From Prevotella sp. (GTDB lineage Bacteria; Bacteroidota; Bacteroidia; Bacteroidales; Bacteroidaceae): 64,000 nt of DNA. The translations under genes and the position numbers were made by a program. The notes under the pieces are model-generated. The model searched no databases. It was not told where the DNA came from and was given only the letters and a program-made list of their open reading frames with translations. How positions within the stretch are numbered: the first letter of the stretch is position 1; each line of letters starts with the position of its first letter. The DNA lies in NCBI GenBank assembly GCA_017410365.1, contig JAFQQY010000015.1, forward strand, positions 1-64,000, written 5' to 3'. Positions 32,001 through 59,674 of the stretch are shown piece by piece.

Positions 32001-32307
32001 TGACGCATCTCTTTGGAATCCAGCAGACCTCGTAACAAAGGCTATGATTTCTAACTTCGTTGAAGACGGTTCATTCCTCCGTTGCTCTGACATCACTATC
32101 GGTTACACACTCCCAACAAGCATCACAGGCAAGTGGGGCATGTCTAAGCTTCGTTTCTACGCTTCAGCTTCTAACTTGTTCATCTTGACAAGCTACTCAG
32201 GCTTCGACCCAGAAGTTGACGTACAGTCTGGTCTTACTCCATCTATGGACTACAACCGCTACCCACGCAACCGTCAGTTCTCTCTTGGTGTAAACGTATC
32301 ATTCTAA
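29005..32307 (+). CDS. SusC-like TonB-dependent outer-membrane transporter
   Basis: The 1100-residue protein has a signal peptide (cleavage near IYAQA). A carboxypeptidase-D-like beta domain follows (LKGTVKDSAGEPVIGATVVEKG, about 29-110), then the plug (VVVLGYTSKARKDLTGSV, IRVRGATSV, DPLFIVDGFQ) and a 22-strand barrel to the C-terminal NRQFSLGVNVSF. It imports oligosaccharides across the outer membrane with energy from TonB. The partner SusD gene follows by 26 bp. Given the enzymes on both sides, the ligand is inferred to be pectin oligosaccharide. Confidence 0.95.
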   Translation: MSGNLKTFRIALVVFLTFFVSNIYAQALKGTVKDSAGEPVIGATVVEKGSPKNAAVTNFDGVFNIKVAAGKTLVISYVGMKTQEVKAANNMVVVMEDDAALVEEVVVLGYTSKARKDLTGSVGSISGKKLEAVPVASAAEALQGKIAGVQVTTVDGQPGADINIRVRGATSVTQSNDPLFIVDGFQVENINDIPPSDIASIDVLKDASLTAIYGAKGGNGVVVVTTKAAKEGKITVGFNGRLSVASVSKKLDLLNTAQFVDYQYDRAAANGTRSSWAKPFRYNFGNPADLDIYHTLPTHDWQDEILGENPINYSANVTVGGGTDKLKFNMSLTQTEDKGIIMGSGVRRTNLNIKLAADLTDNLKLTYNPRMTYRRDIGGGASRIGSGGLIDVLKYRPTNGLREAAFWAPEVADPDEEANFAYTNPKSDIQTNQKKKHSYSINNQLSLQWTPIEGLVLRTEGNYSIAFSDENQFYGPFTSTGQEVVHQGLPVATIKDVRTESYTWTNTASYSFTHNDDHNWSFLLGQEIYNWQRRTENETAHLFSRDVDAETAWNRMNLGVPYELITELSTPNRMASFFGQANYNYDHKYLLSVTFRADGSTKFAPGNQWGYFPSISGAWDMKRESFLENVDWINQLKLRAAIGVAGNNNINDDLWRYLYSIKNTGGPAFGEQKPTGELFYESNSEFPNKDIKWETTLTRNIALDLSFFDNRLTITPEFYWNTTSDLLYKSTIPSATGYTKQMQNIGEVSNKGFELTVNGDILRGKDYVLSGNLTFGLNKMTIEKLNATDKVLYNTAGAWKSADEGDYKLEVGGELGLFYGYVYDGLYSPDEFYFDPVQNLLAVPYSDEVPRYDAEGNRMPNTVVNMALGSSNSGEATLPGKIKLKDLNGDGVVDINDKTVIGNSNPEFQGGFGLSGQWKNFDFTANFTYMVGFDVYNATAYALSSSTTKQYQFDNVLDKFADNRWRYVHVNDGSRYSGECMYKNYYLDNGKEIYINMNADASLWNPADLVTKAMISNFVEDGSFLRCSDITIGYTLPTSITGKWGMSKLRFYASASNLFILTSYSGFDPEVDVQSGLTPSMDYNRYPRNRQFSLGVNVSF

Positions 32308-32333
32308 TTAATTTATATTAAAGAATTAAGAAT

Positions 32334-34388
32334 ATGAAAATTAAAAATATATTGATAGGTGGTATCTGCATGCTTACATTTGCAGCCTGCGATGATTACC
32401 TTGATGTTGATGCGCCTTCAAAGTCAACCAATGAGAGTATCTACTCTTCTGAGTCAGAAATCTCTATGGCTCTCAATGAAGTATATGCAAAGGCATTGAC
32501 AGATAACACCTTCGGCAACTTGGCATATAACAACATGTTGCTTAACAGTGACGTTGAGTTTGCTGCAAACGCAAATGAGGTTGCTCAAATCAACGCTCCT
32601 AAGCGTTTCGACTGTACAGCAGAGTCTGGCGATGCTGAAAAGTTCTGGAATGCACTTTATTCTGGTGTAGAAACAGCCAACAACTTCATCTACAACCTTG
32701 AGAACAGCCCAATCTACTCAACAGACAATGAGAATCTTACTCAGATGATGGGTGAGGCAAAGGTGTTCAGAGCGATGTTCTACTATGAACTGCTTTGCTA
32801 CTGGGGAGATATTCCTTTCACAATGCTTCCTACATACGCTACACAGGAGTTCATTCTTCCTGTAACAAGCCGTGATGAAGTATATAAGCAACTTATCGAT
32901 GACCTCAAGTCTGCAGCACCTTTGATGAAGAAGACATCAGACATTGCAGAAGGTATCGAGCGTCCATCTAAGGAAGCTTGTTGGGCTATGATTGCACGTC
33001 TTGCTCTTCAGGCAGGTGGTTACTCACTCCGTCCAGCTGAGGGAACAAACTATGGTAAGATGGCTCGTCCAGAAAACTATAAGGAGTTCTATCAGATTGC
33101 ACGCGCTTACGCTGACTCTGTAATCCAGTCTGGTACACACTCTCTTACAAAGGAATACAAGCAAGTGTTCATCGACGAGTGTAACTTTATTGTTGACAAC
33201 ACCGACGATGCTATCTTCGAACTTCCATTCGGAAATGGTAGCACAGGTCAGTGGGGTTATCGTCAGGGTCCACAGGCCAAGTCTTACGAAGGCAAGACTC
33301 CACACGTATGGGGTGAGACAAACGGTGGTGTACAGGTTACTCCATTCTATCGCTTTACATTCGATGAGAATGACCTCCGCCGCGACTACATCACATGTTT
33401 CTGGTACTATGAAGTAGAAGGTCAGCCAGCTGTTCACCACAACTACACAAGCTACAACGGCAAGTGGTCTAAGTTGTGGAATACCACAGGTCTTGGCGAC
33501 ATCACAACAGGTGCTACAGGTATCAACTTCGCTTACCTCCGCTATGCAGACGTTCTTCTTATGTTTGCAGAAGCAGAGAACGAGCTCAACGGTCCTACAG
33601 ACGCTGCACAGCAGGCACTGAAGACTGTTCGCAAGCGTGCATTCAAGGCAGACAACCATGGCGACAAGGTTGAAGCTTACGTTGCAGCAGCAGCAGCTTC
33701 TAAGGAAACATTCCTTGATGCTGTACTTGATGAGCGTTCTTGGGAATTTGCAGGTGAGAACATGCGTTGGAAGGATCTCGTTCGCAACAATCAGTATGCA
33801 GAGAAACTGTTCTACACATTCCTCCGCTACTACTCTGTTGCTGAAAACTGTATGACATCTTCTAACTTCGATGATATGGTATCTGATTATGATGGTATCT
33901 ACTGGCCAGAAAAGTATCCATTCAGCATGTTCTGGACATATATCAAGAACACTGGCGACAAATCTATCTATACAAACACTCAGTTGCCATTGCTCTATGT
34001 TGTCAATCCTTATTCACAAACAACAATACCACAGATAAGTCCAGAGAACTACATGATGATGGAAGAGCTTCCATACACTCCTATTGCTCTTAAGGACATC
34101 ACTGGCAGCGAAAGTGCAAGTTCAGACAAGATTTGGAACGAGGCTGCTATCAACTGGATGGAAGATGCAGGTTATCCAAAAGCTCAGATTCTCTATTCTC
34201 TCTATGGATACATCCGTGGCAATGAGCAGAGCAAGATTAGCCTCAATGTTGACGGCACAATGCAGGCTATCGACCCAATTAGCTACAATGTAAACAACCT
34301 GCCAGCAGTTCGCTATATGCTTCCAATTCCAAAAGAGGCTATCGCTCGCTCAAACGGTGCTTACACACAGCATTTCGGCTACAAATAA
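32334..34388 (+). CDS. SusD-like surface glycan-binding lipoprotein
   Basis: The 684-residue protein has a lipoprotein signal ending LTFAAC-DDYLDVDAP. It has the SusD/RagB pattern: an N-terminal TPR-like part (YAKALTDN..., FWNALYSGVETANNFIYNLE, GEAKVFRAMFYYEL) and the conserved RYADVLLMFAEAENEL and VLDERSWEFAGENMRWKDLVR. It caps the SusC channel and binds the incoming glycan at the cell surface. It lies 26 bp after susC and 34 bp before the next lipoprotein gene, in one operon. Confidence 0.95.
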   Translation: MKIKNILIGGICMLTFAACDDYLDVDAPSKSTNESIYSSESEISMALNEVYAKALTDNTFGNLAYNNMLLNSDVEFAANANEVAQINAPKRFDCTAESGDAEKFWNALYSGVETANNFIYNLENSPIYSTDNENLTQMMGEAKVFRAMFYYELLCYWGDIPFTMLPTYATQEFILPVTSRDEVYKQLIDDLKSAAPLMKKTSDIAEGIERPSKEACWAMIARLALQAGGYSLRPAEGTNYGKMARPENYKEFYQIARAYADSVIQSGTHSLTKEYKQVFIDECNFIVDNTDDAIFELPFGNGSTGQWGYRQGPQAKSYEGKTPHVWGETNGGVQVTPFYRFTFDENDLRRDYITCFWYYEVEGQPAVHHNYTSYNGKWSKLWNTTGLGDITTGATGINFAYLRYADVLLMFAEAENELNGPTDAAQQALKTVRKRAFKADNHGDKVEAYVAAAAASKETFLDAVLDERSWEFAGENMRWKDLVRNNQYAEKLFYTFLRYYSVAENCMTSSNFDDMVSDYDGIYWPEKYPFSMFWTYIKNTGDKSIYTNTQLPLLYVVNPYSQTTIPQISPENYMMMEELPYTPIALKDITGSESASSDKIWNEAAINWMEDAGYPKAQILYSLYGYIRGNEQSKISLNVDGTMQAIDPISYNVNNLPAVRYMLPIPKEAIARSNGAYTQHFGYK

Positions 34389-40093: not shown

Positions 40094-42667
40094 ATGAAGA
40101 AAAGAACTATGCTATTTTCGATTCTGATGGGATTGGCGGCTACGGTTATGGCGCAGACCCTACCCTATCAGAATCCGAGTTTGACAGCAGAGCAACGTGC
40201 TGACGACCTATTGAAACGCCTAAGACTTGAAGAGAAGGTGAAACTGATGATGAACAGCTCACCAGCCATTCCACGACTGGGCATACCGCAGTTTGAATGG
40301 TGGAACGAAGCACTCCACGGTGTCGGTCGCAACGGTTTCGTTACCGTATTCCCTATCACCATGTCTATGGCCTCATCATGGAACCACGAACTGGTGGAGG
40401 ATGTGTTCACTGCAACCAGCGACGAGGCAAGGGCAAAGAATCAGGAGGCAAAGGCAAGAGGCAGTGTAAAGAGGTATCAGGGTGTTTCGTTCTGGACACC
40501 TAATATCAATATCTTCCGTGACCCTCGCTGGGGACGCGGACAGGAGACTTACGGCGAAGACCCGTATCTTACAACCAAGATGGGACTGGCTGTTGTTCGC
40601 GGACTTGAAGGACCGAAGGGTTCTAAATACCGCAAACTGCTGGCTTGTGCAAAGCACTATGCCGTGCATAGCGGACCGGAATGGAACCGCCACTCGTTCA
40701 ATATGACTGACCTGCCGGCGCGCGACCTTTGGGAAACATACATGCCGGCATTCAAGGCATTGGTGCAGGAGGGTGACGTGGCAGAGGTGATGTGCGCCTA
40801 CCAGCGCAACGACGGTGATCCTTGTTGCGGTAACATACGCTACGAGCAGCAGATTCTGCGCGACGAGTGGGGATTCAAAGGACTCATCGTCAGCGACTGC
40901 GGTGCCATCGGCGACTTCTGGAAACCGGGCCGTCATGGTGTTTCCAAGGATGCGGCATCGGCATCTGCCCGTGCGGTATTGTCAGGAACAGACGTTGAGT
41001 GCGGCAGCAACTACCGCGACCTGCCAGAGGCTGTAAGACGCGGAGAGATAAAGGAGTCGGACATCGACGTGAGCGTTAGACGTCTGCTGATAGCTCGCTT
41101 CCTCGTAGGCGACATGACAGCCGACCATCTTGTGCCATGGACAAGAATACCGTCAAGTGTCATTGCCAGCAAGAAGCACAAGGACCTGGCATATAAGATT
41201 GCACAGCAGGGAACTGTGCTTCTGCAGAACAACGGCATTCTTCCACTGAAGAAATCGGCCGACAATATCGTGGTGATGGGAGCAAATGCCAACGACTCTG
41301 TGATGATGTGGGGCAACTACTGCGGTTTCCCAACCAAGACCGTAACGATACTTGAAGGCATCCGCAACAAGGTTGGCAACGTGAAATACGTTCCCGGTTG
41401 CGGACTCACAAGCAGTGAGACAATGATTAGCAAGTTTGCCAACTTCGTAAGTCCAGACGGCAAAAAGGGCATGCGCGCAAAGTATTGGAACAACACCAAC
41501 AAAGAGGGCGACCCAGCAACAACCGTTTACATCAGCGAACCGATGAACCTCAGCAACGGCGGTGCAACGGTATATGCACCTGGCGTAAACCTCGAGCGTT
41601 TCTCTGCACTATATGAAGGTTCATACACACCGACAAAGGACGAAACGATAACAATAAAAATCAGTTGCGACGACCGTGGCATCGTAGTACTCAACGGCGA
41701 TACCATCATCGATGTTGTCAAGAAGAGCGACAAGCTCGGCATTGGCAGTCGTGAGATAAAGATGAAGGCCGGTCAGAAGTACGACCTCCTCATCGACTAT
41801 ATGCAGAAAGATGACATGGCCACACTGCAGTTCGACTTCGGCAAGATGAGCGTACCAACCAAAGAAGACATCCTTGCACAAGTAGGCAAAGCCAACACCA
41901 TCATCTACGTGGGCGGTATCTCACCACGCCTTGAGGGCGAAGAGATGAAGGTCAACGTTGAGGGTTTCAAGGGCGGCGACCGTACCTCTATCGAACTGCC
42001 AAAGGCTCAGCGCGACATGATTGCCATGCTGAAAGAGGCAGGCAAGAAGGTTATCTTCATCAACTGCTCCGGCAGTGCCATTGCCATGGAACCAGAAACA
42101 CGCAACTGCGAAGCCATCATGCAGGCATGGTATGGAGGTGAGCGCGGCGGCGAGGCTGTGGCAGACATCCTGTTCGGCGACTACAACCCAAGCGGCAAGT
42201 TGCCTATCACATTCTATAAGAACGACAGTCAGTTGCCTGACTTCGAAGACTACAAGATGGCAGGCCGCACCTATCGCTACTTCAACGGCGAACCGCTGTT
42301 CAAGTTCGGTCATGGTCTTAGCTACACCACCTTTGAGTTCAGCAAACCGAAATACGACAACAAGAGCGGAAAGGTTTCTGTAACGGTAAAGAACGCAGGC
42401 AAGATGGACGGCGAGGAAGTGGTTCAGGTTTATCTCCGCAACACTGCCGATGCCGAAGGTCCTATCAAGACCCTCCGTGCCTACAAGCGCATAATGCTGA
42501 AAGCAGGCGAGAAGCAGACGGTAGAGATTGACTTCCCACGCAGCAGTTTCGAGTGTTGGGATGCCTCAACCAACACCATGAGAGTAATGTCGGGCACATA
42601 CGAAATTATGGTTGGCAACTCAAGCGCAAGCAGCAATTTGAAGTCAATCACAGTAAAAGTGAAATAA
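40094..42667 (+). CDS. GH3 beta-glycosidase with PA14 insert (probable beta-xylosidase)
   Basis: The 857-residue protein has a signal peptide (VMAQT). The GH3 N-terminal barrel includes FEWWNEALHGVGRNG, PRWGRGQETYGEDP and the nucleophile region LIVSDCGAIGDFW (Asp268). The second alpha/beta domain starts near 360. It is interrupted at about 455-585 by a PA14-like module (MRAKYWNNTNKEGD to MATLQFDFGK), known in other GH3 enzymes to shape the active site. A C-terminal FN3-like domain follows. WWNEALHGV and GPxWGRGQE-type motifs place it with beta-xylosidase-like GH3. In a pectin locus it could trim xylose or another beta-linked side sugar. Confidence 0.9.
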   Translation: MKKRTMLFSILMGLAATVMAQTLPYQNPSLTAEQRADDLLKRLRLEEKVKLMMNSSPAIPRLGIPQFEWWNEALHGVGRNGFVTVFPITMSMASSWNHELVEDVFTATSDEARAKNQEAKARGSVKRYQGVSFWTPNINIFRDPRWGRGQETYGEDPYLTTKMGLAVVRGLEGPKGSKYRKLLACAKHYAVHSGPEWNRHSFNMTDLPARDLWETYMPAFKALVQEGDVAEVMCAYQRNDGDPCCGNIRYEQQILRDEWGFKGLIVSDCGAIGDFWKPGRHGVSKDAASASARAVLSGTDVECGSNYRDLPEAVRRGEIKESDIDVSVRRLLIARFLVGDMTADHLVPWTRIPSSVIASKKHKDLAYKIAQQGTVLLQNNGILPLKKSADNIVVMGANANDSVMMWGNYCGFPTKTVTILEGIRNKVGNVKYVPGCGLTSSETMISKFANFVSPDGKKGMRAKYWNNTNKEGDPATTVYISEPMNLSNGGATVYAPGVNLERFSALYEGSYTPTKDETITIKISCDDRGIVVLNGDTIIDVVKKSDKLGIGSREIKMKAGQKYDLLIDYMQKDDMATLQFDFGKMSVPTKEDILAQVGKANTIIYVGGISPRLEGEEMKVNVEGFKGGDRTSIELPKAQRDMIAMLKEAGKKVIFINCSGSAIAMEPETRNCEAIMQAWYGGERGGEAVADILFGDYNPSGKLPITFYKNDSQLPDFEDYKMAGRTYRYFNGEPLFKFGHGLSYTTFEFSKPKYDNKSGKVSVTVKNAGKMDGEEVVQVYLRNTADAEGPIKTLRAYKRIMLKAGEKQTVEIDFPRSSFECWDASTNTMRVMSGTYEIMVGNSSASSNLKSITVKVK

Positions 42668-45839: not shown

Positions 45840-48800
45840 TTATTCTGCTTTCGCCCTGTATTCAGACGGAGTCATTCCCGTTTCTTTCTTAAAGCACTTG
45901 CTGAAATACTTCGGGTCGGAGAAACCCACCATATAGGCTATCTGAGAGAAAGAGTAGTCGCTCTTGCTTATCAGTTCCTCTGCACGCTGCATCCTTATAT
46001 GGCGCACGAAATCGACGGGCGTCATGCCCACGATGCTCTTTATCTTTCCGTAGAACACCGAACGGCCCAGGTGTACGGCATCTGCCAGTTCCTCAATCTT
46101 CAGTTCCGGGTCGTCAATGCGCTTCTCAAGGAAGTCCATCAGCGTCTTCATCATCTCGTTGTCGGCATTAACAATCTCCGGAGCATCCAGCTTGTAGGTC
46201 TTACGGTCCTCTGGTTTCAACTGCTCCACATACGTCTGCTGCATCATTCGGCGATGACTGATGATATTGCTTACGCGCAACTTCAGATAAGTAGCACTAA
46301 ACGGTTTGGTGATATAGTCATCAATACCCGATTTCAGTCCTTCAATGCGGTCTTCCATCGACGCCTTCGCCGACAGCACAATAATCGGGATATGGCAAAT
46401 GTTATTGTCCTTCTTTATCTTCTTCACCATCGTCAGTCCGTCCATCACCGGCATCATCACGTCGGTAATGATAAAGTCGGGCATCTCCTTCTGCGCTATC
46501 TCAAGACCCATCTTTCCGTTCTCTGCCTGCAGCACATTGTATTCGTTGCTCAAGATGCCCACAAGGAATGTGCGCAAGTCGGCATTGTCCTCGACCACCA
46601 GGAGAGTAGAACGTGAAGAACTGCCGCCAGTACTTTCGCCTGTAAGCGGTTCTTCGTCTGCCTTAATGTCTTCATCCACTGTATCGCTTAGCACACTTGC
46701 CTGCGGCACCTCCTCGTCACTGATATACACACCTCTTTCCATGCTGTACTTCAGCATCTGGTTCACCAGTTCCAACATCTGACTGGCATTGCGCTGCACC
46801 ATTTCCAGATGACCGCGCACACCGTCAGGCAGTCCTTTGCTGTTCAGTACCTCTGCCACCGGTCCGCCGATAAGAGTCAGCGGAGTACGCAACTTATGAC
46901 TGATGTCAGTGAAGAAGCGCGTCTTCATATCGTTCAACTTGCGCTCCATGCGCGAGCGGTTGTTCAGATTATAGACATAGAACACCAGATAAACAGCCAT
47001 GCAGAGCAGCAATATGTAAATGAGCTTTGCCCATCCAGTCTCCCAGAATGTCGGTTCCACCTCAATCTCCAGTTCGGCAATATTGTCCACCTCTACCCCA
47101 TCGCTGTTGGTACTCTTCACCAGCAATCGGTATTTTCCTGCCGACAGATGACTCAGCGATGCGTTGTTCACAGCACCTACATAGTTCCAGTCGTCATCCA
47201 GTCCCTCCAGACGGTAGGCATATTCCACAAGGTCGTTGTCCTTGTATTCCAATGCAGAGAAATAAACGGTGAGGTTGCGCTTTTCTGCCGGCACAATGAG
47301 TTTGCCGCTGTTCAATATAGGCAGTCGCTTGTGCTCGCCCTGATACTGAACACTCATGAAAACAATGTTCGGACGGTAGTCGCTCTTGGCAAGCGTCTCT
47401 TTGCCAAAGCGGGCAAACCTGCCACGGGCAGCAGCAATGACCATATTCGTCTGCGCACAATATGTTGGCAATGCCTCGGAGAACTCTATGTTGTCGCCTA
47501 TCGTACTCGAACTGTATTGCACCAGCGTAGAGTCTTTCGGATTGTATCTGTCGGCCGTACTCTCTTTGATCAGCCACAGACAGCCGTCTTCATCTTCGAG
47601 TATCGATTGTATGATACTTTCCGAAGAAGACATATTCTCTATAGCCTGGAACTGGATATTGTTCTGCAAGAGGTTGTCCGACTTGACGAGCTGCACACCA
47701 CCGCCAAGCGTCAGCACATAGATATCGCCGTTCTTCATCACCTGCGTCTGCATCACGTCGTTGGTCAGCAACGATGTCTTCGACTGGGCATTAAGGCGGT
47801 TTTCAAAGAACTTTATCTCTTCAGGCGACTTGAAGCAGTTGGAGAAGGTAAGCAATCCGTTATTGGTTGACAGTATCACCGTGCCCTTGCCGTCGTGGGT
47901 TATTCGGCGTATCTTGCCATACTTGCTTATCAGATATTGCGGCATCTCGTTGCGATAGTTGTAGAACCGCATGCCGGCAGCCGTCTCACGCACCAGATTC
48001 AGTCCTCCTACGAAGGTTGCCAGCCAGATGTTTCCCCTTTCGTCGATGTCCATGTCATAAACCTCGTCGTAACTCAGCGAATATTTGTCGGCAGGGTCAT
48101 GCCTGTAGTTACGCAAACTGCCCTCTCCGTCATAGATAAACAGTCCGCTGCCTTTCGTTCCTATCCAGATGCGCCCTTTCCTGTCCTGCTTCAGCGAATA
48201 GATGCGTTGGGCGAAAACCGTACTTTCCTTTTGTATCTTTCCGTTGCGGTCGAGATAGCCGAGCAACTTGCCATTGCTGTCATATACTGCCAGTATGCCG
48301 TTGTACGTACCTGCCCAAATCCTGCCCTTGTTGTCGCAGAGCAGCGAGCGCACCTCTGTGTTAGAATATACGTCGGTAAACTTGAACTGGTCGTACTTGA
48401 ACTGCAGGTGGTGAATATCGCGCGTACTGGTAAACCAGATGTTCTTCTCCTTGTCGATTTCAAACTTGTTTACCGTGGCAAGGTTTCCGTATGAATCCCT
48501 GTCAGACCTCAACTGCTGCGGACAGTGCTTCTGCGTTTCCTCGTCATAATAGCCGAAATAGCCGCCATTAGGCGAAAGCCATATTGTGCCGTTGGCATCC
48601 TCGTGGAATATCGTCTGCTCTGTCACGGTATATTGCACACCCGGTTGTTTCTCTACATCTACCGCAGAGAAATGGGATTTCTTCACGTCATATACCGCCA
48701 TCTGACCGGCATCTGTAAAGAACCAGAATCTGCCTTTGCTGTCTTTATATATATCAGTTGCGTTTCCTTTAAGGCCGAAAGGCATTTTGCTTACCTTGTT

Positions 48801-49640
48801 TGCCTTAACGTCATAGGTTATGATGCCGATGTTTGAAGAGAGAATCACCTTTGAGGCATCGAGCGACTTCAATGTGTATATCTTGTTAACGGTTTCAGGC
48901 AGGTTTACCACTTGCAACTGACTATTATCGGCATAGGTGAACATCCTGCCGTCAACGGTAGCATAGACAAACTTGCCTGCAGTCTCTGCCATGTATTCAA
49001 GAGGTTGCTCAATGAGGTACTTGTCGCGATAACGGATTATGCCCTTTTCAGTAAATATCCATTCATCGCCCTTTGAGTCGCACTCTATCTTCTTTATCGC
49101 ATTGCCCAGCAGATAGTCGGTGGCCAGGTCAACCATCTCAATGCCTTCGCCAACCGTCATCTTGTGTATGTCAACCTTAAAGCTCGGTCCGTCCTCATTG
49201 TTCACAAGCCATATCGCCCCGTTGCTTCCGCCATAGAAGGCTCGGGTGCGGAGGTTCTTGCCGAACTTCTCTTTGATGATTCCATTGACATCTACAAACT
49301 GGCATGTATGGGTGTCGAACATATATACGCTTCGCTCGTAGGTGATGCTCCACACGTTGTCGCGCTCGTCAATCTTAATAAATATCTGTCGGTTTACGGC
49401 TTTTTCATCATGCCTGTCGGGGTTGTTCCTGAAGTTCATGAAACGGTGTCCGTCATAGCAGCAGAGGCCGTTGAGCGTGGCAAACCACATCAATCCGTTG
49501 TTTGCCCGCCCCATTCCGGCTATCGAATTGGATGGTATTCCGTCGCGCGTGGTATAGGTGTTTATCAGACAGTATGGCTGCGCACTCATACTCAGGGCGC
49601 AGATCAACATCATTATGGAGAGGATAAAATGTCGTTTCAT
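45840..49640 (-). CDS. Hybrid two-component regulator lacking the HATPase domain
   Basis: Numbered from the upstream in-frame ATG at 49700 (the likely start is residue 21, 49640). A signal peptide is followed by about 720 residues of two Reg_prop beta-propellers, a Y_Y_Y domain (about 800-885) and one membrane helix (about 890-910). HisKA has TRFFTDISHKLRTP with His935. The receiver starts at 1032 (LLVVEDNADLRTFL; phospho-acceptor Asp1080 in IITDVMMP; Lys1132 in TKPF). An AraC-type HTH spans 1185-1285. Between HisKA and receiver there are only about 43 acidic, Ser-rich residues; no N, G1, F or G2 box of a histidine-kinase ATPase is present. It should sense a pectin-derived ligand in the periplasm and activate this locus, but cannot self-phosphorylate as drawn. 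Confidence 0.93.
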   Translation of the reverse strand: MKRHFILSIMMLICALSMSAQPYCLINTYTTRDGIPSNSIAGMGRANNGLMWFATLNGLCCYDGHRFMNFRNNPDRHDEKAVNRQIFIKIDERDNVWSITYERSVYMFDTHTCQFVDVNGIIKEKFGKNLRTRAFYGGSNGAIWLVNNEDGPSFKVDIHKMTVGEGIEMVDLATDYLLGNAIKKIECDSKGDEWIFTEKGIIRYRDKYLIEQPLEYMAETAGKFVYATVDGRMFTYADNSQLQVVNLPETVNKIYTLKSLDASKVILSSNIGIITYDVKANKVSKMPFGLKGNATDIYKDSKGRFWFFTDAGQMAVYDVKKSHFSAVDVEKQPGVQYTVTEQTIFHEDANGTIWLSPNGGYFGYYDEETQKHCPQQLRSDRDSYGNLATVNKFEIDKEKNIWFTSTRDIHHLQFKYDQFKFTDVYSNTEVRSLLCDNKGRIWAGTYNGILAVYDSNGKLLGYLDRNGKIQKESTVFAQRIYSLKQDRKGRIWIGTKGSGLFIYDGEGSLRNYRHDPADKYSLSYDEVYDMDIDERGNIWLATFVGGLNLVRETAAGMRFYNYRNEMPQYLISKYGKIRRITHDGKGTVILSTNNGLLTFSNCFKSPEEIKFFENRLNAQSKTSLLTNDVMQTQVMKNGDIYVLTLGGGVQLVKSDNLLQNNIQFQAIENMSSSESIIQSILEDEDGCLWLIKESTADRYNPKDSTLVQYSSSTIGDNIEFSEALPTYCAQTNMVIAAARGRFARFGKETLAKSDYRPNIVFMSVQYQGEHKRLPILNSGKLIVPAEKRNLTVYFSALEYKDNDLVEYAYRLEGLDDDWNYVGAVNNASLSHLSAGKYRLLVKSTNSDGVEVDNIAELEIEVEPTFWETGWAKLIYILLLCMAVYLVFYVYNLNNRSRMERKLNDMKTRFFTDISHKLRTPLTLIGGPVAEVLNSKGLPDGVRGHLEMVQRNASQMLELVNQMLKYSMERGVYISDEEVPQASVLSDTVDEDIKADEEPLTGESTGGSSSRSTLLVVEDNADLRTFLVGILSNEYNVLQAENGKMGLEIAQKEMPDFIITDVMMPVMDGLTMVKKIKKDNNICHIPIIVLSAKASMEDRIEGLKSGIDDYITKPFSATYLKLRVSNIISHRRMMQQTYVEQLKPEDRKTYKLDAPEIVNADNEMMKTLMDFLEKRIDDPELKIEELADAVHLGRSVFYGKIKSIVGMTPVDFVRHIRMQRAEELISKSDYSFSQIAYMVGFSDPKYFSKCFKKETGMTPSEYRAKAE

Positions 49641-49723
49641 CATTATTTTTACTCGTTGTTCAGATGATTGGTACTTATAGTCTATTATGCAAAAATACAA
49701 AATTATTGCTATAATCTGCTATA
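49605..49723. repeat. Direct repeat, copy 1 (regulator 5' end and promoter)
   Basis: 119 bp starting CAACATCATTATGGAGAGGA and ending CTGCTATA. It is repeated at 52969-53087 with two mismatches (GA versus AC) and no gaps. It covers the first 12 codons of the regulator from 49640, its leader and its -7 element. Confidence 0.95.
49690..49697 (-). promoter_or_regulatory. -7 element of the regulator gene
   Basis: TATTTTTG on the minus strand fits TAnnTTTG and leaves a leader of about 43 nt. The same element occurs in the duplicated copy at 53061-53054. Confidence 0.55.
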
Positions 49724-49863
49724 ATTAATCATTTTATTCTCCAATTTGGGGTTTATTGTATTTTTACTATTTTGACAAAAGAATATGAGGACATTAATTT
49801 GTCGTTTATTGGACAGGAGTACATGAAAATTTTTGTTCTAAGGTATACCAACCCTTTGTCAGC

Positions 49864-50592: not shown

Positions 50593-50804
50593 TTGTAATA
50601 CATTTTAATCATTTCTGAAGAATATTTATCAGCCTCATATTCTAAACTACCTTTAACATAATATGAATTGATAAATCCATATTTCAGATATTCCATAATT
50701 ATTTTTGATCGTATGATTTGAAACCAATTCTCCTGTTCCTGCTCATTGCCACCATAAGTATGGCATTGCCAAGTTTCCGCGCCTTGAGACTTACAATAAG
50801 GGTG
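50589..50804 (-). pseudogene. 3' remnant of a gene once coupled to the 242-residue protein gene
   Basis: An open frame without a start codon runs from a stop at 50807 to a TGA that overlaps the next ATG. It encodes about 70 residues of protein-like sequence, with GAETWQCHTYGGNEQEQENW followed by a helical FQIIRSKIIMEYLKYGF. The 5' part is replaced by the end of the ATPase gene, with which it overlaps in another frame by 14 bases. The family is not recognised. Confidence 0.6.
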
Positions 50805-52182
50805 TCATATAAAGTGGAAGATAGGTGACGCCGTTCTCTACTTTATAGTCAGCTGCATGCAAAACAGTAGGAGTGGTCATATACTCTCCAAACTTATTCA
50901 TACACTTCTTTAGGGAAGATAATGTGTAGTTCTTGCCGCTTTTGACTTCTATCGGACGGATATTGTGACGACTGGTCACTTTGTCCTTTTGAAGCAAGAA
51001 GTCTATTTCCATTCGTTCCTCGGCTTCTTCTGACGACTTACTGTAGAAAAAGAGCTTGTTACCGCTGGCTGTCAGCATCTGGGCCACGATATTCTCAATG
51101 AGCATTCCCTCGTTCACCTCCAGCTTTCCAAAGAGCAGTTTTTGGTAAATCTCAGACGAGACGATGCCCTTTTCATCAAAAGCATGGCTGATTAACAAGC
51201 CCGTATCGTTCATATAACACTTCAATGTCGTACGGTCTTCGTTCATCTTCAGTCCGATGTTCGGCTCTGTCGAATTGTAGCAGATGTTGACAACCCTCGC
51301 GTCCTTCAGCCAGAAGAATGCATCGTCCCAATCGCGATATTTCGCGCCTGGTTTCAGGGCTGACAACCGAAACTTCTTTTCGTGCTTGGAGAGCTGGGGA
51401 GGAATCTGGTCGAAGATAGACACCACCTTGTCTGCTATCTCACCTGCATAGTTGAAGATGTCATTACGATAGATAGTCAGCACATCGCGCTTTGCTGCAT
51501 CTACGGCATCAAAGTCTTTGGTCTCAACATACTTTTTGACGGCTTGCGGCATTCCTCCAACTATCATATAGAGACGGAAAGCATCCATTGCCAGACGATG
51601 GAAAGCCTGTCCCATCGGCTTCCTCTCTACATACATTTTCCGTATCAAGTCCATCAGCATATCATTACCTGTAGCCCAAAGAAACTCTTCAAAGTCCATC
51701 GGGTACATCTGAATAGAACGTTCTTCCGATGGGAGCACGATGCCTTGTGTGTTTTTCTTGATACTTACCAAAGATCCCGTCTCAATGTAGTCATACCTTC
51801 TGTCGGCCACCAGAAACTTGATGGCTGCTCTCGCTCTGGGGCATAACTGTATCTCATCAAGGATAATAAGCGACTTGCGCTCATGGAGCCTTACCTTATA
51901 GTGTTGGCTCAGATAGAGGAACAACGTGTCGAGGTCTTCCAGATAGAGGTCAAACCAATCTCTTACCATCTGGGGAGCCTTATTGAAGTCAATGAGGATG
52001 TATGACTCATACTCATTCTTGGCGAATTCCTCTACGATATAACTCTTTCCGATACGTCGTGCTCCCTCTACGAGTAGTGCCACCTCACCGTTTCTTTTCT
52101 CCTTCCAATCAAGGAGTTGCTGATATATTTTACGCTTCATAATGATGTCATCCGCACCTTTTTGCGATTTCTGAGCTTCCAT
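50791..52182 (-). CDS. AAA-family ATPase with DUF4143-type C-terminal domain
   Basis: The 463-residue protein has a Walker A motif LLVEGARRIGKSYIVEEFAK (about residues 37-56), a Walker B region SLIILDEIQLCPRARAAIKFL, and a C-terminal nuclease-like part with PIEVKSGKNYTLSSL, as in DUF4143 ATPases. These are common, scattered genes in Bacteroidota; their role is unknown and may involve mobile or defence functions. A second in-frame ATG at 52140 (MKRKIYQQLLDW) is also plausible. The first ATG at 52182 sits about 25 nt after the predicted transcription start. A three-copy phased repeat covers the promoter and start. Confidence 0.85.
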   Translation of the reverse strand: MEAQKSQKGADDIIMKRKIYQQLLDWKEKRNGEVALLVEGARRIGKSYIVEEFAKNEYESYILIDFNKAPQMVRDWFDLYLEDLDTLFLYLSQHYKVRLHERKSLIILDEIQLCPRARAAIKFLVADRRYDYIETGSLVSIKKNTQGIVLPSEERSIQMYPMDFEEFLWATGNDMLMDLIRKMYVERKPMGQAFHRLAMDAFRLYMIVGGMPQAVKKYVETKDFDAVDAAKRDVLTIYRNDIFNYAGEIADKVVSIFDQIPPQLSKHEKKFRLSALKPGAKYRDWDDAFFWLKDARVVNICYNSTEPNIGLKMNEDRTTLKCYMNDTGLLISHAFDEKGIVSSEIYQKLLFGKLEVNEGMLIENIVAQMLTASGNKLFFYSKSSEEAEERMEIDFLLQKDKVTSRHNIRPIEVKSGKNYTLSSLKKCMNKFGEYMTTPTVLHAADYKVENGVTYLPLYMTPLL

Positions 52183-52968: not shown

Positions 52969-53087
52969 CAACATCATTATGGAGAGGATAAAATGTCGTT
53001 TCATCATTATTTTTACTCGTTGTTCAACTGATTGGTACTTATAGTCTATTATGCAAAAATACAAAATTATTGCTATAATCTGCTATA
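52969..53087. repeat. Direct repeat, copy 2 (orphan regulator 5' end)
   Basis: 119 bp, 117 of them identical to 49605-49723 and in the same orientation, 3364 bp away. The copied ATG (53004) opens a frame that leaves the repeat and stops after about 35 codons, so no regulator is made here. The copied -7 element could still drive leftward transcription. Confidence 0.95.
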
Positions 53088-53202
53088 TAAAGACAAAATA
53101 TTATCCATTAATCCTTGTTATCCTTAGACAGAAAGACAAATAATATTCTTAGACAGAAATTACCAGAAATTATTTATAATTATTGTAAGGTTTGCATTGT
53201 AG

Positions 53203-54738: not shown

Positions 54739-56148
54739 TTACTCAGCTTTCTTTGTTGCTTTCTTAGCAGCAGGTTTCTTTTCTGTTGCTTTCTTCTCAG
54801 CTGTCTTCTTTGCAGGAGCCTTCTTTGAAGCCTTCTGCTTCTCGTCAGCAGCCTGTACCTTCTCAAGCTTTGTCTTCAAACGGCTGATTTCCTTATCCTT
54901 CATCTCAATCTCATCACCCTGGTTCTTGATGGTGGTGAGCAAGCTGTTGAGTTCCTCATTGTCGATTTCCTCTGGATAGAGACTGTGAACACGGTTCATG
55001 AAGTCGCCAAGAATGTTCATGTAGTTGGTGAACGCATCGAACGGACCGCTATAGATACCACGGTCGAGACCTACGTTAGAAGGCTTGGTGGTCATGAAAC
55101 GGAAGTTGTTTGATGCCTGGAGATAATCCCAATCCTGACAGATGCGGCGGTCGTTGGCAATACGCACACGGTCGGCGATGCTGTAAAGCTTTTCAAATGC
55201 CTCACGCTGCATAGCGTTACCGAGCCAGCAGCTGACGTCGCGCTCCTCGTCAACCCATGACAATGTGTCAGGCACTTCGAGATTGCCAACGCTCTTTGTC
55301 ATCTTGCAAATCTCTGTCGGTGTAGCGAAGGTGATGCCCTTTGCCTTAGCACAAGCAGGAAGAGCCTTGATGAAGTCGAGGATGTTTGAAGACAATGGCT
55401 GTGCTATGCCGAGAGCAGAGAGTTCCATGAAGATGTTGATAATCTGCTCGTCTTCTGGCAGAGAAGCTATTGTGTTGATATAGTTGTCGGCAAAGAGCGG
55501 ATAGCCTTCCCAGTCGCTGTTGTTGAAACGCAGTGAGATGTCATCGCTAAGTTCTACATCGCGGAGCAGAAGCTTGAGGTTTGGAGCCATGCAGCAGTTA
55601 TAGACATAGTGAGGTGACTTCCAACCAAGAACGTGCTTTGCACCTTCTGTGAGCATGCCGAGGAATCCCATTGCTGCAGCCTGAGCACCAATGTCATCGC
55701 TGTAAATCAATGACGAGTTGCGCAGTACAGTTGGCTTCTTGCCGAAGTACTCCTCAATCTTTGCACTCTGCTTGCGAACGTCGGCAGCAAAGCACTCTTC
55801 GTTGGCAAGTGAAGAAAGACCGTGAGAATATGGTTCTGCTAAGAACTCCACGCAACCTGTCTCGTTGAGTTCCTGCAACTTTGCAAGAACCTGCGGTGCG
55901 TGCATTTCCAACTGCTCCATACCAACACCTGAGAGAGAGAAGGCAACCTTGAAGTACTTGCCGTTCTCCTTAATCATGTCTTGGAGCACGTTGAGTGCAG
56001 GCATATATGAACGCTCTGCTATATCGCTGATGCTACGCTCATTCTCATAGTCATCATAATAATAATGGTCTGTACCGATGTCAAAGAAACGGTAGCGCTT
56101 GAGATGGATAATCTGATGTATCTCAAAATATAAACATATTGTTTTCAT
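54739..56148 (-). CDS. GH57 alpha-glucan hydrolase with lysine/alanine-rich tail
   Basis: The 469-residue cytoplasmic protein starts KTICLYFEIHQIIHLKRYRF, with the His-Gln typical of GH57. The catalytic-nucleophile region is VEFLAEPYSHGLSSL. It corresponds to the Bacteroides intracellular alpha-amylase next to the GT4 and debranching genes. After the catalytic domain a coiled coil (about 390-435) leads into about 30 residues made almost only of Lys, Ala, Thr, Glu and Pro (KKAPAKKTAEKKATEKKPAA...), like histone H1 tails. The tail may bind nucleic acid or another polyanion. It is expected to act on glycogen or maltodextrins. Confidence 0.92.
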   Translation of the reverse strand: MKTICLYFEIHQIIHLKRYRFFDIGTDHYYYDDYENERSISDIAERSYMPALNVLQDMIKENGKYFKVAFSLSGVGMEQLEMHAPQVLAKLQELNETGCVEFLAEPYSHGLSSLANEECFAADVRKQSAKIEEYFGKKPTVLRNSSLIYSDDIGAQAAAMGFLGMLTEGAKHVLGWKSPHYVYNCCMAPNLKLLLRDVELSDDISLRFNNSDWEGYPLFADNYINTIASLPEDEQIINIFMELSALGIAQPLSSNILDFIKALPACAKAKGITFATPTEICKMTKSVGNLEVPDTLSWVDEERDVSCWLGNAMQREAFEKLYSIADRVRIANDRRICQDWDYLQASNNFRFMTTKPSNVGLDRGIYSGPFDAFTNYMNILGDFMNRVHSLYPEEIDNEELNSLLTTIKNQGDEIEMKDKEISRLKTKLEKVQAADEKQKASKKAPAKKTAEKKATEKKPAAKKATKKAE

Positions 56149-56322
56149 AACTGAGCCCCCCTCTTATCCCACCGAAGGAGGGAAGACCGGCATAGGGGCA
56201 TTGGGTCTTTATATTCTTAATTATTTTTTTAGGTATGCTGGAATGTAAGGAGGCAGGAGGTTGACATTACTTTATCAAGCAAACCTTAATCCTTAATCCC
56301 TAATCTCTAATCCAGAATTCTT
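56149..56322. other. Intergenic spacer with hairpins and 7-bp tandem repeat
   Basis: Next to the GH57 start, on the minus strand, AAGACC/GGTCTT and CCCTC/GAGGG can pair in a GC-rich leader. At 56284-56318 five 7-bp units (CCTTAAT, CCTTAAT, CCCTAAT, CTCTAAT, CCAGAAT) abut the GT4 stop codon. No gene is seen. Confidence 0.6.
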
Positions 56323-57591
56323 CTATTCCCAACCCAAGGTTCTTCTATAGAGTGTGCGAATCCAAGCACCTACCTTAACCCATGTAATCTGGTCAACCTC
56401 GTTCTTGCCTTCTTCCTTGAGGTAGTTGAACAGAGAGTCGTTGGCACAGATAGCATAGATGGCATCGGCCAGGGCGTGGATGTCCCAGTAGTCAACCTTG
56501 ATACAGTTGTTCAGAATCTCGGCACAACCGCTCTGCTTAGAGATGATTGACGGCGTGCCGCACTGCATAGCCTCCAGCGGCGAGATACCAAACGGCTCGC
56601 TCACAGACGGCATAACATAAACATCAGATGCCTTCAAGCATTCATATACCTGCTTGCCACGCATGAAGCCAGGGAAGTGGAAACGATCGGCAATGCCTCT
56701 TTCCGCAGCCAACTGAATCATGGCATCCATCATATCGCCTGAACCTGCCATACAGAAACGCACGTTGCGGGTGCGGTGAAGTACCATATTGGCAGCCTCA
56801 ACGAAATACTCTGGTCCTTTCTGCATAGTGATACGACCGAGGAATGTTACCACCTTCTCCTTGCCTGTGTGGTCGGGACGAGGAATCTCGTCGTACTCCT
56901 TTGGCAATGGATAAACGGCGTTGTGAACGGTGAAGCACTTGCTTGGGTCCTGATGATACTGGTTGATAACCGTCTGGCGCGTCAGTTCACTCACGCACAT
57001 GATGCAGTCGGCGTTGTCCATACCGTTCTTCTCGATAGAATAAACCGTAGGGTTCACCTTTCCGCGAGAGCGGTCGAAGTCGGTAGCGTGAACGTGAATG
57101 CAAAGCGGTTTGCCACTCACCTGCTTGGCATGAATACCGGCAGGGAATGTAAGCCAGTCGTGAGCATGAATGATGTCAAACTCCTCTGTGCGTGCCACAA
57201 CACCGGCTATTACAGAGTAGTTGTTGATTTCCTCATGCAGGTTCTTAGGGTAGCCGCCGGCAAACTCCATGCAGCCAAGGTCGTTGACATGCATATAGTT
57301 GAAGTCGGCATAAATATGATCGCGGCATTTAAAATAATAATCTGGGTCCATGATGTTACCCACACGACTCTTTACGTAGTCGTGATTTACATCACGCCAT
57401 GCTATTGGCACGGCATTCATTGCAACAATTCGGCAAGCATCCTGACTCTCATCACCAAAAGGATGTGGCAGACAGAGCGTGATATCCATATCTCCCTGAG
57501 CCTTCAGTCCTTCAGATATACCATAGTTGGCTGTAGCAAGACCGCCAAATACGTGAGGAGGATACTCCCATCCAAACATTAATACTTTCAT
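56323..57591 (-). CDS. GT4-family glycosyltransferase (glycogen synthase type)
   Basis: The 422-residue cytoplasmic enzyme has a GT-B fold. The N-terminal lobe starts MKVLMFGWEYPPHVFGGLATAN and includes IIHAHDWLTFPAGI. The C-terminal lobe has VTFLGRITMQKGPEYFVEA and the nucleotide-sugar E-x7-E region SEPFGISPLEAMQCG. In Bacteroides the equivalent gene sits with GH57 and the debranching enzyme and is taken to extend alpha-glucan (glycogen) from a nucleotide sugar. A related transferase role is possible. Confidence 0.9.
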   Translation of the reverse strand: MKVLMFGWEYPPHVFGGLATANYGISEGLKAQGDMDITLCLPHPFGDESQDACRIVAMNAVPIAWRDVNHDYVKSRVGNIMDPDYYFKCRDHIYADFNYMHVNDLGCMEFAGGYPKNLHEEINNYSVIAGVVARTEEFDIIHAHDWLTFPAGIHAKQVSGKPLCIHVHATDFDRSRGKVNPTVYSIEKNGMDNADCIMCVSELTRQTVINQYHQDPSKCFTVHNAVYPLPKEYDEIPRPDHTGKEKVVTFLGRITMQKGPEYFVEAANMVLHRTRNVRFCMAGSGDMMDAMIQLAAERGIADRFHFPGFMRGKQVYECLKASDVYVMPSVSEPFGISPLEAMQCGTPSIISKQSGCAEILNNCIKVDYWDIHALADAIYAICANDSLFNYLKEEGKNEVDQITWVKVGAWIRTLYRRTLGWE

Positions 57592-57605
57592 ATCTTCTTA
57601 ATTTT

Positions 57606-57714
57606 AGAAGTTCAGGAGTTCGGGAGTTCAGGAGTTCAGGAGTTCAGGAGTTCAGACATTACATTTAGTCTTTCATTCCTCTTCTCTCATCCCTCATCTT
57701 TCATCCCTCATCTC
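57606..57714. repeat. Two intergenic simple repeats (8 bp and 14 bp)
   Basis: Six units of AGGAGTTC type run from 57606 to 57653. Two perfect units of TCATCCCTCATCTT type follow at 57687-57714. They fill most of the 133-bp gap between the GT4 and debranching genes. Confidence 0.85.
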
Positions 57715-57724
57715 TCATCACTTG

Positions 57725-59674
57725 TTATTTCTGATAGGTATATTTCTCAAGCAGTTTTAATGAGCGCAGAATCTCTGCCACATTCATGGCAAACGACATG
57801 GCACCACGTCCGTGGAACGGAGGATTGCCATCGAAGAGTTCAGGAATAGTTCCAAGAGCATGATAGTTCATCTCGTCTTCGAATCCTACCATGTGGCGTT
57901 CAATAAAGCTCAGTCGGGTACGCTTATAGAGCTTCAAGCATGCTTCCATATAGAAGCCTCCCAGCCATGGCCATGCCGTTCCCTGATGGTAAGCATAGTC
58001 GCGCTGTGTCTGCGGACCAACATACATAGGATTGTATCCGCCACTCTTTGGCGACAGAGAACGGAGTCCCTTAGGCGTGAGCAGTTCTCTTGTACAAACA
58101 TCGAGCACACTCTTCTTCTGGTCTTGATTGAGCGGTGAATAGTCGAAAGCACAAGCGAAAATCATGTTTGGGCGAACACTCCAGTCCATCATATTGCCGT
58201 CAACATAGTCGAGCAGATAGCCATACTCGTTGAGGAATGTATTGACAAACGACTCCTTGCAAACCTCGGCACGCTTCTCCAGAGCTTCAGCCGCTTCTGC
58301 CTTGCCCTCGTCTGCTGCAAGTGATGCGCAGAATCTAAGAGCATTATACCAGAGAGCGTTAAACTCTACGATATAGCCGGTGCGAGGAACTACCGGGCGT
58401 CCGTTGGCTGTTGAATTCATCCATGTAACAGCCTTGTCGCGTCCGTTGCTGTAAAGCAAGCCGTTGTCGTCGAGGCGCAAGTTTGGATGCTTGCCCGCAA
58501 GGATATACTCCATGATATCCTCAACAAGCTTGCCGTACATCTCGCGGCATTTCTCCTTGCCTGCATTCTTGGCATACTGCTGTATTGCCCATATAGCCCA
58601 AAGCAGAACGTCGGGCTGTTCCATCTCATAAATCTTGACGGTTAACGGTTTGCCTTCCATAAACTCACGCAAGCCACGCTCTGCCGTCTTCATCACCAGT
58701 TCAAAATAGTCTTGCTCGTCGATGGCGAGTGTAAGTCCCGGCAATGATATAAATGTATCGCGCGCGCGACACTTGAACCATGGATAACCGGCAAGGATGT
58801 AGCGGTCGTCTTCATTCTCGCGGTTGTGGAACTGATGTGCAGCGTTAACAAGACAGTGGAAGAAGTTGTCGCGTGGTGCGCGCAAATCCACTTCATTGTC
58901 AAACAGTTTTTTCAGTTCGGTTGCCTTGCTTGGCGATATTGACGCAGCAAAGACAATGCTCTCGCCCTTCTTGATTGGCATCTCGAAATAGCCAGGTACG
59001 TAGAGGTCCTCATTAGAATCGTAACCACGTTCCTGCTCCTTAGGATATTCGATGCCACGATACCAGTCTGGCTGGAATACGAACTCGTTCTTCTTGCTGA
59101 ACTGCATATACAGGTCTGGATAGCCGGCATACATACAGGTCTTGATACCGTTGGTAACTGCCTGATAGTCGCGGCTTGCTGTTGTGTTCTCATGCGTGAA
59201 CGCACGGACACTGCGGAAAGCAAGGAAAGGACGGAAGCGAAGCGTTGTTGCAGAATGTGCATCAACGAGGGTGTAACGAATAAGGATTCGATCTTCATAA
59301 TGCTGGAAAACCACTTCCTTCTTCAACAGAACTCCTCCCACACGATAGAGTGTGGTAGGCACCTTGTCACAGTCAAACTCTCGAATGTACTTGTGACCTT
59401 TAGGACTGTAATTGTTTCCCTGATACTTGTGGAGTCCGAGATTAAACTCCGCACCATGCTGGATAACCGTAACATCGAGCGATGACAACAGCACGTGGTT
59501 GTCGTCGTTGATTTCCGGCACTGGCACCACGAGCAAGCCGTGATACTTTCTTGTGTTACAATCAACGATTGTAGAACAAGAATATGCACCAGAACGATTG
59601 GTTCTAAGCAATTCTCTACGGAGGGATTCCTCCAGGTTAGTCATTACAGCCTTTTCAAAACGTAAATAACTCAT
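57725..59674 (-). CDS. Glycogen debranching enzyme (amylo-alpha-1,6-glucosidase, GH133 type)
   Basis: The 649-residue protein has an N-terminal beta-rich domain (about 1-250, with NTRKYHGLLVVPVPEIN and LSSLDVTVIQHGAEFNLG) and a C-terminal (alpha/alpha)6 domain (about 280-645). The latter has GYPWFKCRARDTFISLPG, ALWYNALRF and HQGTAWPWLGGFYMEA. It hydrolyses alpha-1,6 branches in the cytoplasm and completes the glycogen trio with GT4 and GH57. A consensus promoter and a leader hairpin precede it. Confidence 0.93.
   Translation of the reverse strand: MSYLRFEKAVMTNLEESLRRELLRTNRSGAYSCSTIVDCNTRKYHGLLVVPVPEINDDNHVLLSSLDVTVIQHGAEFNLGLHKYQGNNYSPKGHKYIREFDCDKVPTTLYRVGGVLLKKEVVFQHYEDRILIRYTLVDAHSATTLRFRPFLAFRSVRAFTHENTTASRDYQAVTNGIKTCMYAGYPDLYMQFSKKNEFVFQPDWYRGIEYPKEQERGYDSNEDLYVPGYFEMPIKKGESIVFAASISPSKATELKKLFDNEVDLRAPRDNFFHCLVNAAHQFHNRENEDDRYILAGYPWFKCRARDTFISLPGLTLAIDEQDYFELVMKTAERGLREFMEGKPLTVKIYEMEQPDVLLWAIWAIQQYAKNAGKEKCREMYGKLVEDIMEYILAGKHPNLRLDDNGLLYSNGRDKAVTWMNSTANGRPVVPRTGYIVEFNALWYNALRFCASLAADEGKAEAAEALEKRAEVCKESFVNTFLNEYGYLLDYVDGNMMDWSVRPNMIFACAFDYSPLNQDQKKSVLDVCTRELLTPKGLRSLSPKSGGYNPMYVGPQTQRDYAYHQGTAWPWLGGFYMEACLKLYKRTRLSFIERHMVGFEDEMNYHALGTIPELFDGNPPFHGRGAMSFAMNVAEILRSLKLLEKYTYQK

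Follow-up and report, generated by a model that had tools for sequence, protein, structure and literature searches.

A conserved hybrid two-component regulator of Prevotella and its relatives that lacks the HATPase_c domain and is predicted to be kinase-dead

Background

In gut Bacteroidales, much of polysaccharide use is controlled by hybrid two-component regulators (HTCSs), which are taken to be receptors that autophosphorylate. The canonical Bacteroides proteins (e.g., BT4124 and BT4663, represented here by L034 of Phocaeicola vulgatus ATCC 8482) combine propellers, a Y_Y_Y domain, a membrane helix, HisKA, HATPase_c, a receiver, an AraC HTH and an S/CHIP-DK clamp. According to the portions of Gao and colleagues (PMC11253607) drawn on here, the HTCS receiver clamps the HTH via the S/CHIP-DK motif and represses DNA binding until it is phosphorylated. 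The two activities of HisKA depend on different residues: in the portions of Willett and Kirby (PMC3510030) used here, the acid that follows the phospho-accepting His is required only for kinase activity, and a Thr/Asn only for phosphatase activity. For example, CrdS with E372A, D, G or Q has no kinase activity and is phosphatase-competent, N375A loses the phosphatase, and H371A loses the kinase and keeps most of the phosphatase. Likewise, HK853 E261A is kinase-deficient and phosphatase-competent, and the DHp of EnvZ or NtrB alone (work cited in the same paper) is a phosphatase, though its activity is lower than when the ATPase domain is present.

The present analysis concerns a 64,000-nucleotide stretch of Prevotella sp. 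DNA (the window; positions 1 to 64,000 of contig JAFQQY010000015.1, assembly GCA_017410365.1), in which a preliminary description had noticed an HTCS whose HATPase_c domain, expected between HisKA and receiver, appeared to be missing. The window protein shares with canonical HTCSs the propeller sensor, the Y_Y_Y domain, the membrane helix, a HisKA with its His, an intact receiver, the AraC HTH and the clamp; it differs from them in having no HATPase_c, in having H-K in place of H-E, and in a diverged end of HisKA helix 2. CrdS E372A, HK853 E261A and the isolated EnvZ and NtrB DHp domains (PMC3510030, in part) have likewise lost the acid, or have an inactive or absent ATPase domain, with Thr kept, but these are laboratory constructs, whereas the window type is a natural tethered hybrid found in many species. 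The Caulobacter pseudo-kinase DivL (PMC4211667, in part) resembles what we propose here in having a HisKA-type dimer that does not autophosphorylate and still binds a receiver. DivL, however, has Tyr for His, keeps a degenerate ATPase domain, showed no phosphatase activity and works with a separate receiver, whereas the window protein keeps the His and has no ATPase domain. Finally, the HTCS BT4236 (PMC11253607, in part) is inferred not to autophosphorylate, as is predicted for the window protein; in BT4236 the His is replaced by Gln and the clamp motif is altered, whereas the window protein keeps both His and clamp and is without the ATPase domain. Within the open-licence literature (subscription journals lay mostly outside this scope), no description of a HATPase-less HTCS was found. 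The data presented below establish that this conserved, unusual HTCS variant is real.

Results and Discussion

Domain layout and the missing HATPase_c domain

The regulator gene is a single open frame on the minus strand (45840..49700; 1286 codons counted from a TTG), intact across its whole length as first described, although translation more likely begins at an ATG, either codon 20 (49643) or codon 21 (49640). Pfam places periplasmic Reg_prop propellers N-terminal to a Y_Y_Y domain (residues 819-881; 47058..47246, minus strand, as are all features of the gene). These are followed by a hydrophobic stretch, judged by eye to be the membrane helix (approximately residues 888-911; 46968..47039), and by the HisKA or DHp domain (residues 925-987; 46740..46928; Pfam and alignment) with the motif H935-K936-L-R-T939-P. 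In the alignment, the codon of Lys936 (46893..46895) occupies the place of the kinase-specific acid, and that of Thr939 (46884..46886) the place of the phosphatase-specific Thr/Asn. An acidic, Ser-containing linker (46605..46739) joins HisKA directly to the receiver (residues 1034-1142; 46275..46601; Pfam), which carries the phospho-Asp1080 codon at 46461-46463, and an AraC-type HTH_18 domain (residues 1205-1283; 45852..46088; Pfam) ends the protein. Residue alignment leaves His935 and Asp1080 where they had been assigned. The clamp is represented by CHIP at residues 1102-1105 and, presumably, by D1180 and K1219, both placed by spacing.

No HATPase model matches the 1286-residue regulator at E<=1 in Pfam, in agreement with the original observation that the domain is absent between HisKA and receiver. 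The stretch between these two domains is 46 residues long, against 31-74 residues (median 41) in 52 distinct HATPase-less hybrids and 198-223 residues (median 209) in 21 HATPase-bearing outgroup HTCSs. The remaining linker is of normal length, as had been supposed. Relative to the 21 full HTCSs about 168 residues are gone, which corresponds to about 500 bp and replaces the earlier figure of about 350 bp. HATPase_c is matched in all 21 outgroup HTCSs, a class that was set from insert length and then checked with Pfam, so that the split is not blind. In the 50 of the 52 hybrids that were scanned, HATPase_c is not among the best 25 of 35 Pfam families, which take in every family with at least two members, and HisKA, receiver and HTH are each matched in 50/50. 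Having no HATPase_c, the window protein is predicted to be incapable of autophosphorylation by the usual route, which is in line with the preliminary description.

Distribution and synteny

Searching 398 genomes of the genus at the protein level (E<=1e-140) located 54 places, spread over 51 genomes. All 54 were read: 45 HATPase-less hybrids with short HisKA-receiver spacing, eight one-component proteins and one broken gene (L083). A search of 301 genomes of the family gave 55 places, namely the regulator itself, seven HATPase-less hybrids (three of them from another genus) and 47 places with longer frames. From these 47, 22 were taken as loci and 21 used (L112 was dropped), and 25 were left out. 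The genus and family genomes together thus hold 52 distinct HATPase-less hybrids, and the comparison with orthologs that had been proposed finds the same architecture in all of them.

Syntenic cases occur in Xylanibacter rodentium (L031) and in an uncultured Prevotella (L033), whose regulators have the same HATPase-less architecture and are 50-52% identical to the window regulator. Their orthology is supported by shared neighbours, because the three genes that adjoin the regulator in both are the window's genes at 54739-59674 (86-90% identical). The other neighbour of the L031 regulator is 68% identical to the window GH3 protein at 40094-42667. The loss of the domain and the intact frame therefore stand as first described, but the loss is not private to this strain, since L031, L033 and 49 further distinct proteins are alike. 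A recent private deletion is ruled out by the orthologs, the synteny and the dN/dS values given below. The same three lines of evidence dispose of an assembly artefact in which about 500 bp were dropped. The source assembly is a draft of 55 contigs, but 52 distinct proteins, the syntenic L031 and L033 included, share this architecture although their assemblies are independent, which reduces the probability of such an artefact to practically nothing.

In the window, a 139-nt direct repeat (92% identical, copies 3364 apart, at 49605-49743 and 52969-53107) comprises the regulator promoter and first codons. Between the copies lie an AAA/DUF4143 gene (50791-52182) and a gene without assigned function. 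This stretch stands between the regulator and the three genes next to which its L031 and L033 orthologs are found, and seems to have been inserted or duplicated later. A pectin-type gene cluster (16993-45739) also adjoins the regulator; Pfam identifies in it a 1592-residue protein that combines GH28 and GH88, two GH3 proteins and a pectinesterase, and SusC/SusD-like genes were recognised by eye at 29005-34388.

Conserved and replaced residues

Of the 52 HATPase-less hybrids, 51 retain the phospho-accepting His; the exception, L026, has Asn in its place and keeps the Thr and the receiver residues. The residue after the His is Lys in 35, Gln in 9, Arg in 5 and Asn in 3 of the 52, and never Glu or Asp, whereas it is Glu in 21/21 HATPase-bearing outgroup HTCSs. 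Thr at His+4 is found in 52/52 hybrids, as are the Arg and Pro of the H-box. The receiver pocket is likewise complete, with the second acid (Asp), the phospho-Asp, the Ser and the Lys each present in all 52. The solved structures closest to the DHp by sequence are 4jas and 3dge, which we take to be T. maritima HK853, with E261 presumably corresponding to the acid after the His. The window HTCS is thus predicted to be kinase-dead on two independent signs, the absence of the ATPase domain and the replacement of the kinase-specific acid. With a non-acidic residue after the His and Thr at His+4, the pattern of retention and loss matches that expected of a HisKA of the kinase-minus, phosphatase-plus type. 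Gln, found after the His in nine hybrids, is among the substitutions tested in CrdS (PMC3510030, in part).

These residues also bear on where the phosphate might come from. In the window's own genome (89.4% complete) there are 28 HATPase_c places and 19 HisKA places, and HATPase_c lies directly downstream of HisKA in 17 of the 19. The two exceptions are the window regulator and a TPR-sensor gene on contig C33. A separate neighbouring HATPase_c gene was sought and none was found in the window (C11:1-64000) or within 110 kb on the contig, the nearest one on the same contig lying at 160.5 kb. Phosphorylation of His935, or direct feeding of Asp1080, could be the work of a different histidine kinase or of a full HTCS, possibly in a heterodimer, with HisKA as a relay. 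The number of HATPase_c places, 11 of which have no HisKA match beside them, would allow for such a donor, as would the retention of the His in all but one hybrid and the relaxed partner specificity stated for HTCS kinases (PMC11253607, in part). We nevertheless regard this as unlikely, since the acid needed for phosphorylation of the His is absent in 52/52, the helix-2 end that points towards the ATPase domain has diverged, and the surroundings of the gene hold no HATPase_c. In particular, Lys936 and the invariant Thr939 argue against the heterodimer of the preliminary description, in which the ATPase domain of a partner phosphorylates His935. That description had listed another kinase, heterodimers and direct conformational signalling as the ways in which the protein could work; a phosphatase was missing from the list, and it is towards a phosphatase that Lys936 and Thr939 point.

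The clamp between receiver and HTH seems, from its residues, to be intact: S or C is found in 49/52 and His in 51/52 hybrids, with the presumed D1180 and K1219, placed by spacing, in 46/50 and 50/50. Something must therefore release the HTH. We tentatively favour a kinase-dead HTCS in which HisKA docks on and dephosphorylates its own receiver, the phosphate is supplied from outside, and the ligand lowers the phosphatase activity. The HisKA dimer would no longer make phosphate and would still dock on the tethered receiver and remove its phosphate, while the receiver would be charged externally, by acetyl phosphate or by the promiscuous kinase of another HTCS. A glycan bound to the propellers would change the DHp helices so that phosphatase activity falls; phosphate would then accumulate on Asp1080, the HTH would be freed from the receiver, and the neighbouring glycan-utilisation genes would be switched on. 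This reading is preferred because it explains why Thr, H-box and receiver chemistry are kept while the acid and the ATPase domain are gone. Against it, the shape of the helix might by itself explain why the Thr and the H-box persist, and Lys, the commonest residue after the His (35/52), is not among the CrdS substitutions in the portions of PMC3510030 consulted, in which E372K has no occurrence.

Selection and divergence

Estimates of dN/dS were obtained from 19 pairs of HATPase-less proteins differing at <25% of positions, which are not independent of one another; the full HTCS group is represented by four pairs only. Over the 19 pairs, dN/dS is 0.054 in HisKA, 0.010 in the H-box, 0.039 in the receiver and 0.032 in the HTH, with 0.136 in the propellers and 0.340 in the linker. 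Judged from these low substitution rates, HisKA and the receiver are under purifying selection, and HisKA is a domain in use. The values also bear on whether the gene is decaying and heading for loss. Stepwise domain loss does occur in the clade, and breaks or truncations affect L083 and parts of L018, L022 and L077, but the low dN/dS in propellers, HisKA, receiver and HTH, together with long intact frames in most members, makes decay very improbable.

HisKA has diverged faster relative to the receiver in HATPase-less proteins than in full HTCSs (HisKA/receiver ratio of 1.25 vs. 0.76). The end of its helix 2, which in full HTCSs reads LDFRKI and leads into the ATPase domain, is no longer conserved (mean pairwise difference of 0.55 vs. 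0.11). Both observations count against the proposed phosphatase. The main rival to it is signalling that does not depend on phosphorylation, in which motion of the propellers would travel along the membrane helix and the dimeric HisKA to pull receiver and HTH apart mechanically, the receiver serving as a structural clamp. Thr939 and the H-box positions point towards the receiver in known DHp complexes, which speaks against this rival, and so do the complete phosphate pocket of the receiver (Ser and Lys included) in 52/52 hybrids and its low dN/dS, since a mere clamp need not keep an active site. On the other side, L026 has Asn for the His, and a phosphate-independent mode has been suggested for BT4236, which is without the His (PMC11253607, in part). 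Moreover, nine relatives without HisKA and receiver, of at least four origins within the clade (see below), imply that phosphate-free signalling from sensor to HTH must be reachable. We consider this rival possible, if rather doubtful.

Evolutionary history

Two phylogenies were reconstructed, one from propeller and HTH columns (80 rows, without L022, L077 and L083) and one from propeller columns only (73 rows, without these three and seven near-copies). In the first, a branch with an SH-aLRT of 100 separates the 21 full HTCSs from the other 59 proteins, and the second recovers the same split between full and HATPase-less proteins (support 100/100). In both trees, proteins without HisKA and receiver are nested among the HATPase-less hybrids, and four changes (loss of HisKA and receiver) are needed, forced by well-supported branches; the bootstrap range of the number of changes on the 73-row tree is 4 to 4. 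The simplest reading of the trees is that HATPase_c was lost once, long ago, in the clade of the regulator, and that HisKA and receiver would later have been lost at least four separate times within it, assuming no regain. Because at least four sublineages dropped both domains, the HisKA-receiver module is dispensable, which counts against the proposed phosphatase.

The relatives that keep sensor and HTH and are without HisKA and receiver are L028, L029, L030, L032 and L084-L088. Like other one-component membrane regulators (TTRs, SusR-like), they have the lineage of sensor and HTH in common with the window protein and differ from it in lacking HisKA and receiver, both of which it possesses. 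The HATPase-less HTCS probably represents an intermediate on the way from two-component to one-component regulators.

Parallel losses in other sensor lineages

An alignment of the HisKA-receiver stretch was used to search 295 genomes of the order at E<=1e-50, a cut-off that diverged cases would escape, and gave one contiguous HisKA-receiver match besides the regulator itself. This match, L120, has a Peripla_BP_4 sensor, HisKA, receiver and HTH and no HATPase. Its relatives L170 (74% identical) and L171 (35%) are also without HATPase, and the three have the motifs H-S, H-S and H-Q, respectively, with Thr kept. Nine other loci of the group, amounting to eight genes, combine H-D with longer spacing and ATPase boxes. 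L172 and L178 are fragments of a single gene, and L120 and L169 are the same gene. The HATPase boxes were called from crude patterns, and L162, L166 and L180 are not represented in the motif scan.

The TPR-sensor gene on contig C33 of the window's own genome (L118, 8929-10584 and 10550-11371) is a second HATPase-less hybrid, with H-Q, whereas 17 of 19 related loci have H-E followed by an ATPase box. Its linker carries short repeated peptides, and its receiver and HTH lie in an overlapping second frame, possibly marking a slippage site; the gene may be broken. It is the weakest parallel case because its receiver is in the second, overlapping frame. Loss of HATPase, loss of the acid and retention of the Thr thus coincide in three sensor lineages, the C33 case being the weaker one, and this speaks for the proposed phosphatase.

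Conclusions

On the broadest view, HTCSs of Bacteroidales would have repeatedly lost the ATPase domain and the acid while keeping the Thr and the receiver, turning from kinases into phosphatases relieved by ligand and, in one clade, into a stepping stone to one-component regulators; as a generalisation we hold this to be possible and still doubtful. The finding itself is a widespread subfamily of HTCSs predicted to be unable to autophosphorylate that keeps the chemistry of the receiver and the residue linked to phosphatase activity. This subfamily makes it possible to test whether outside phosphate donors drive PUL regulation. It likewise opens to testing the route from two-component to one-component proteins, whose intermediate is present in this clade together with at least four end points.
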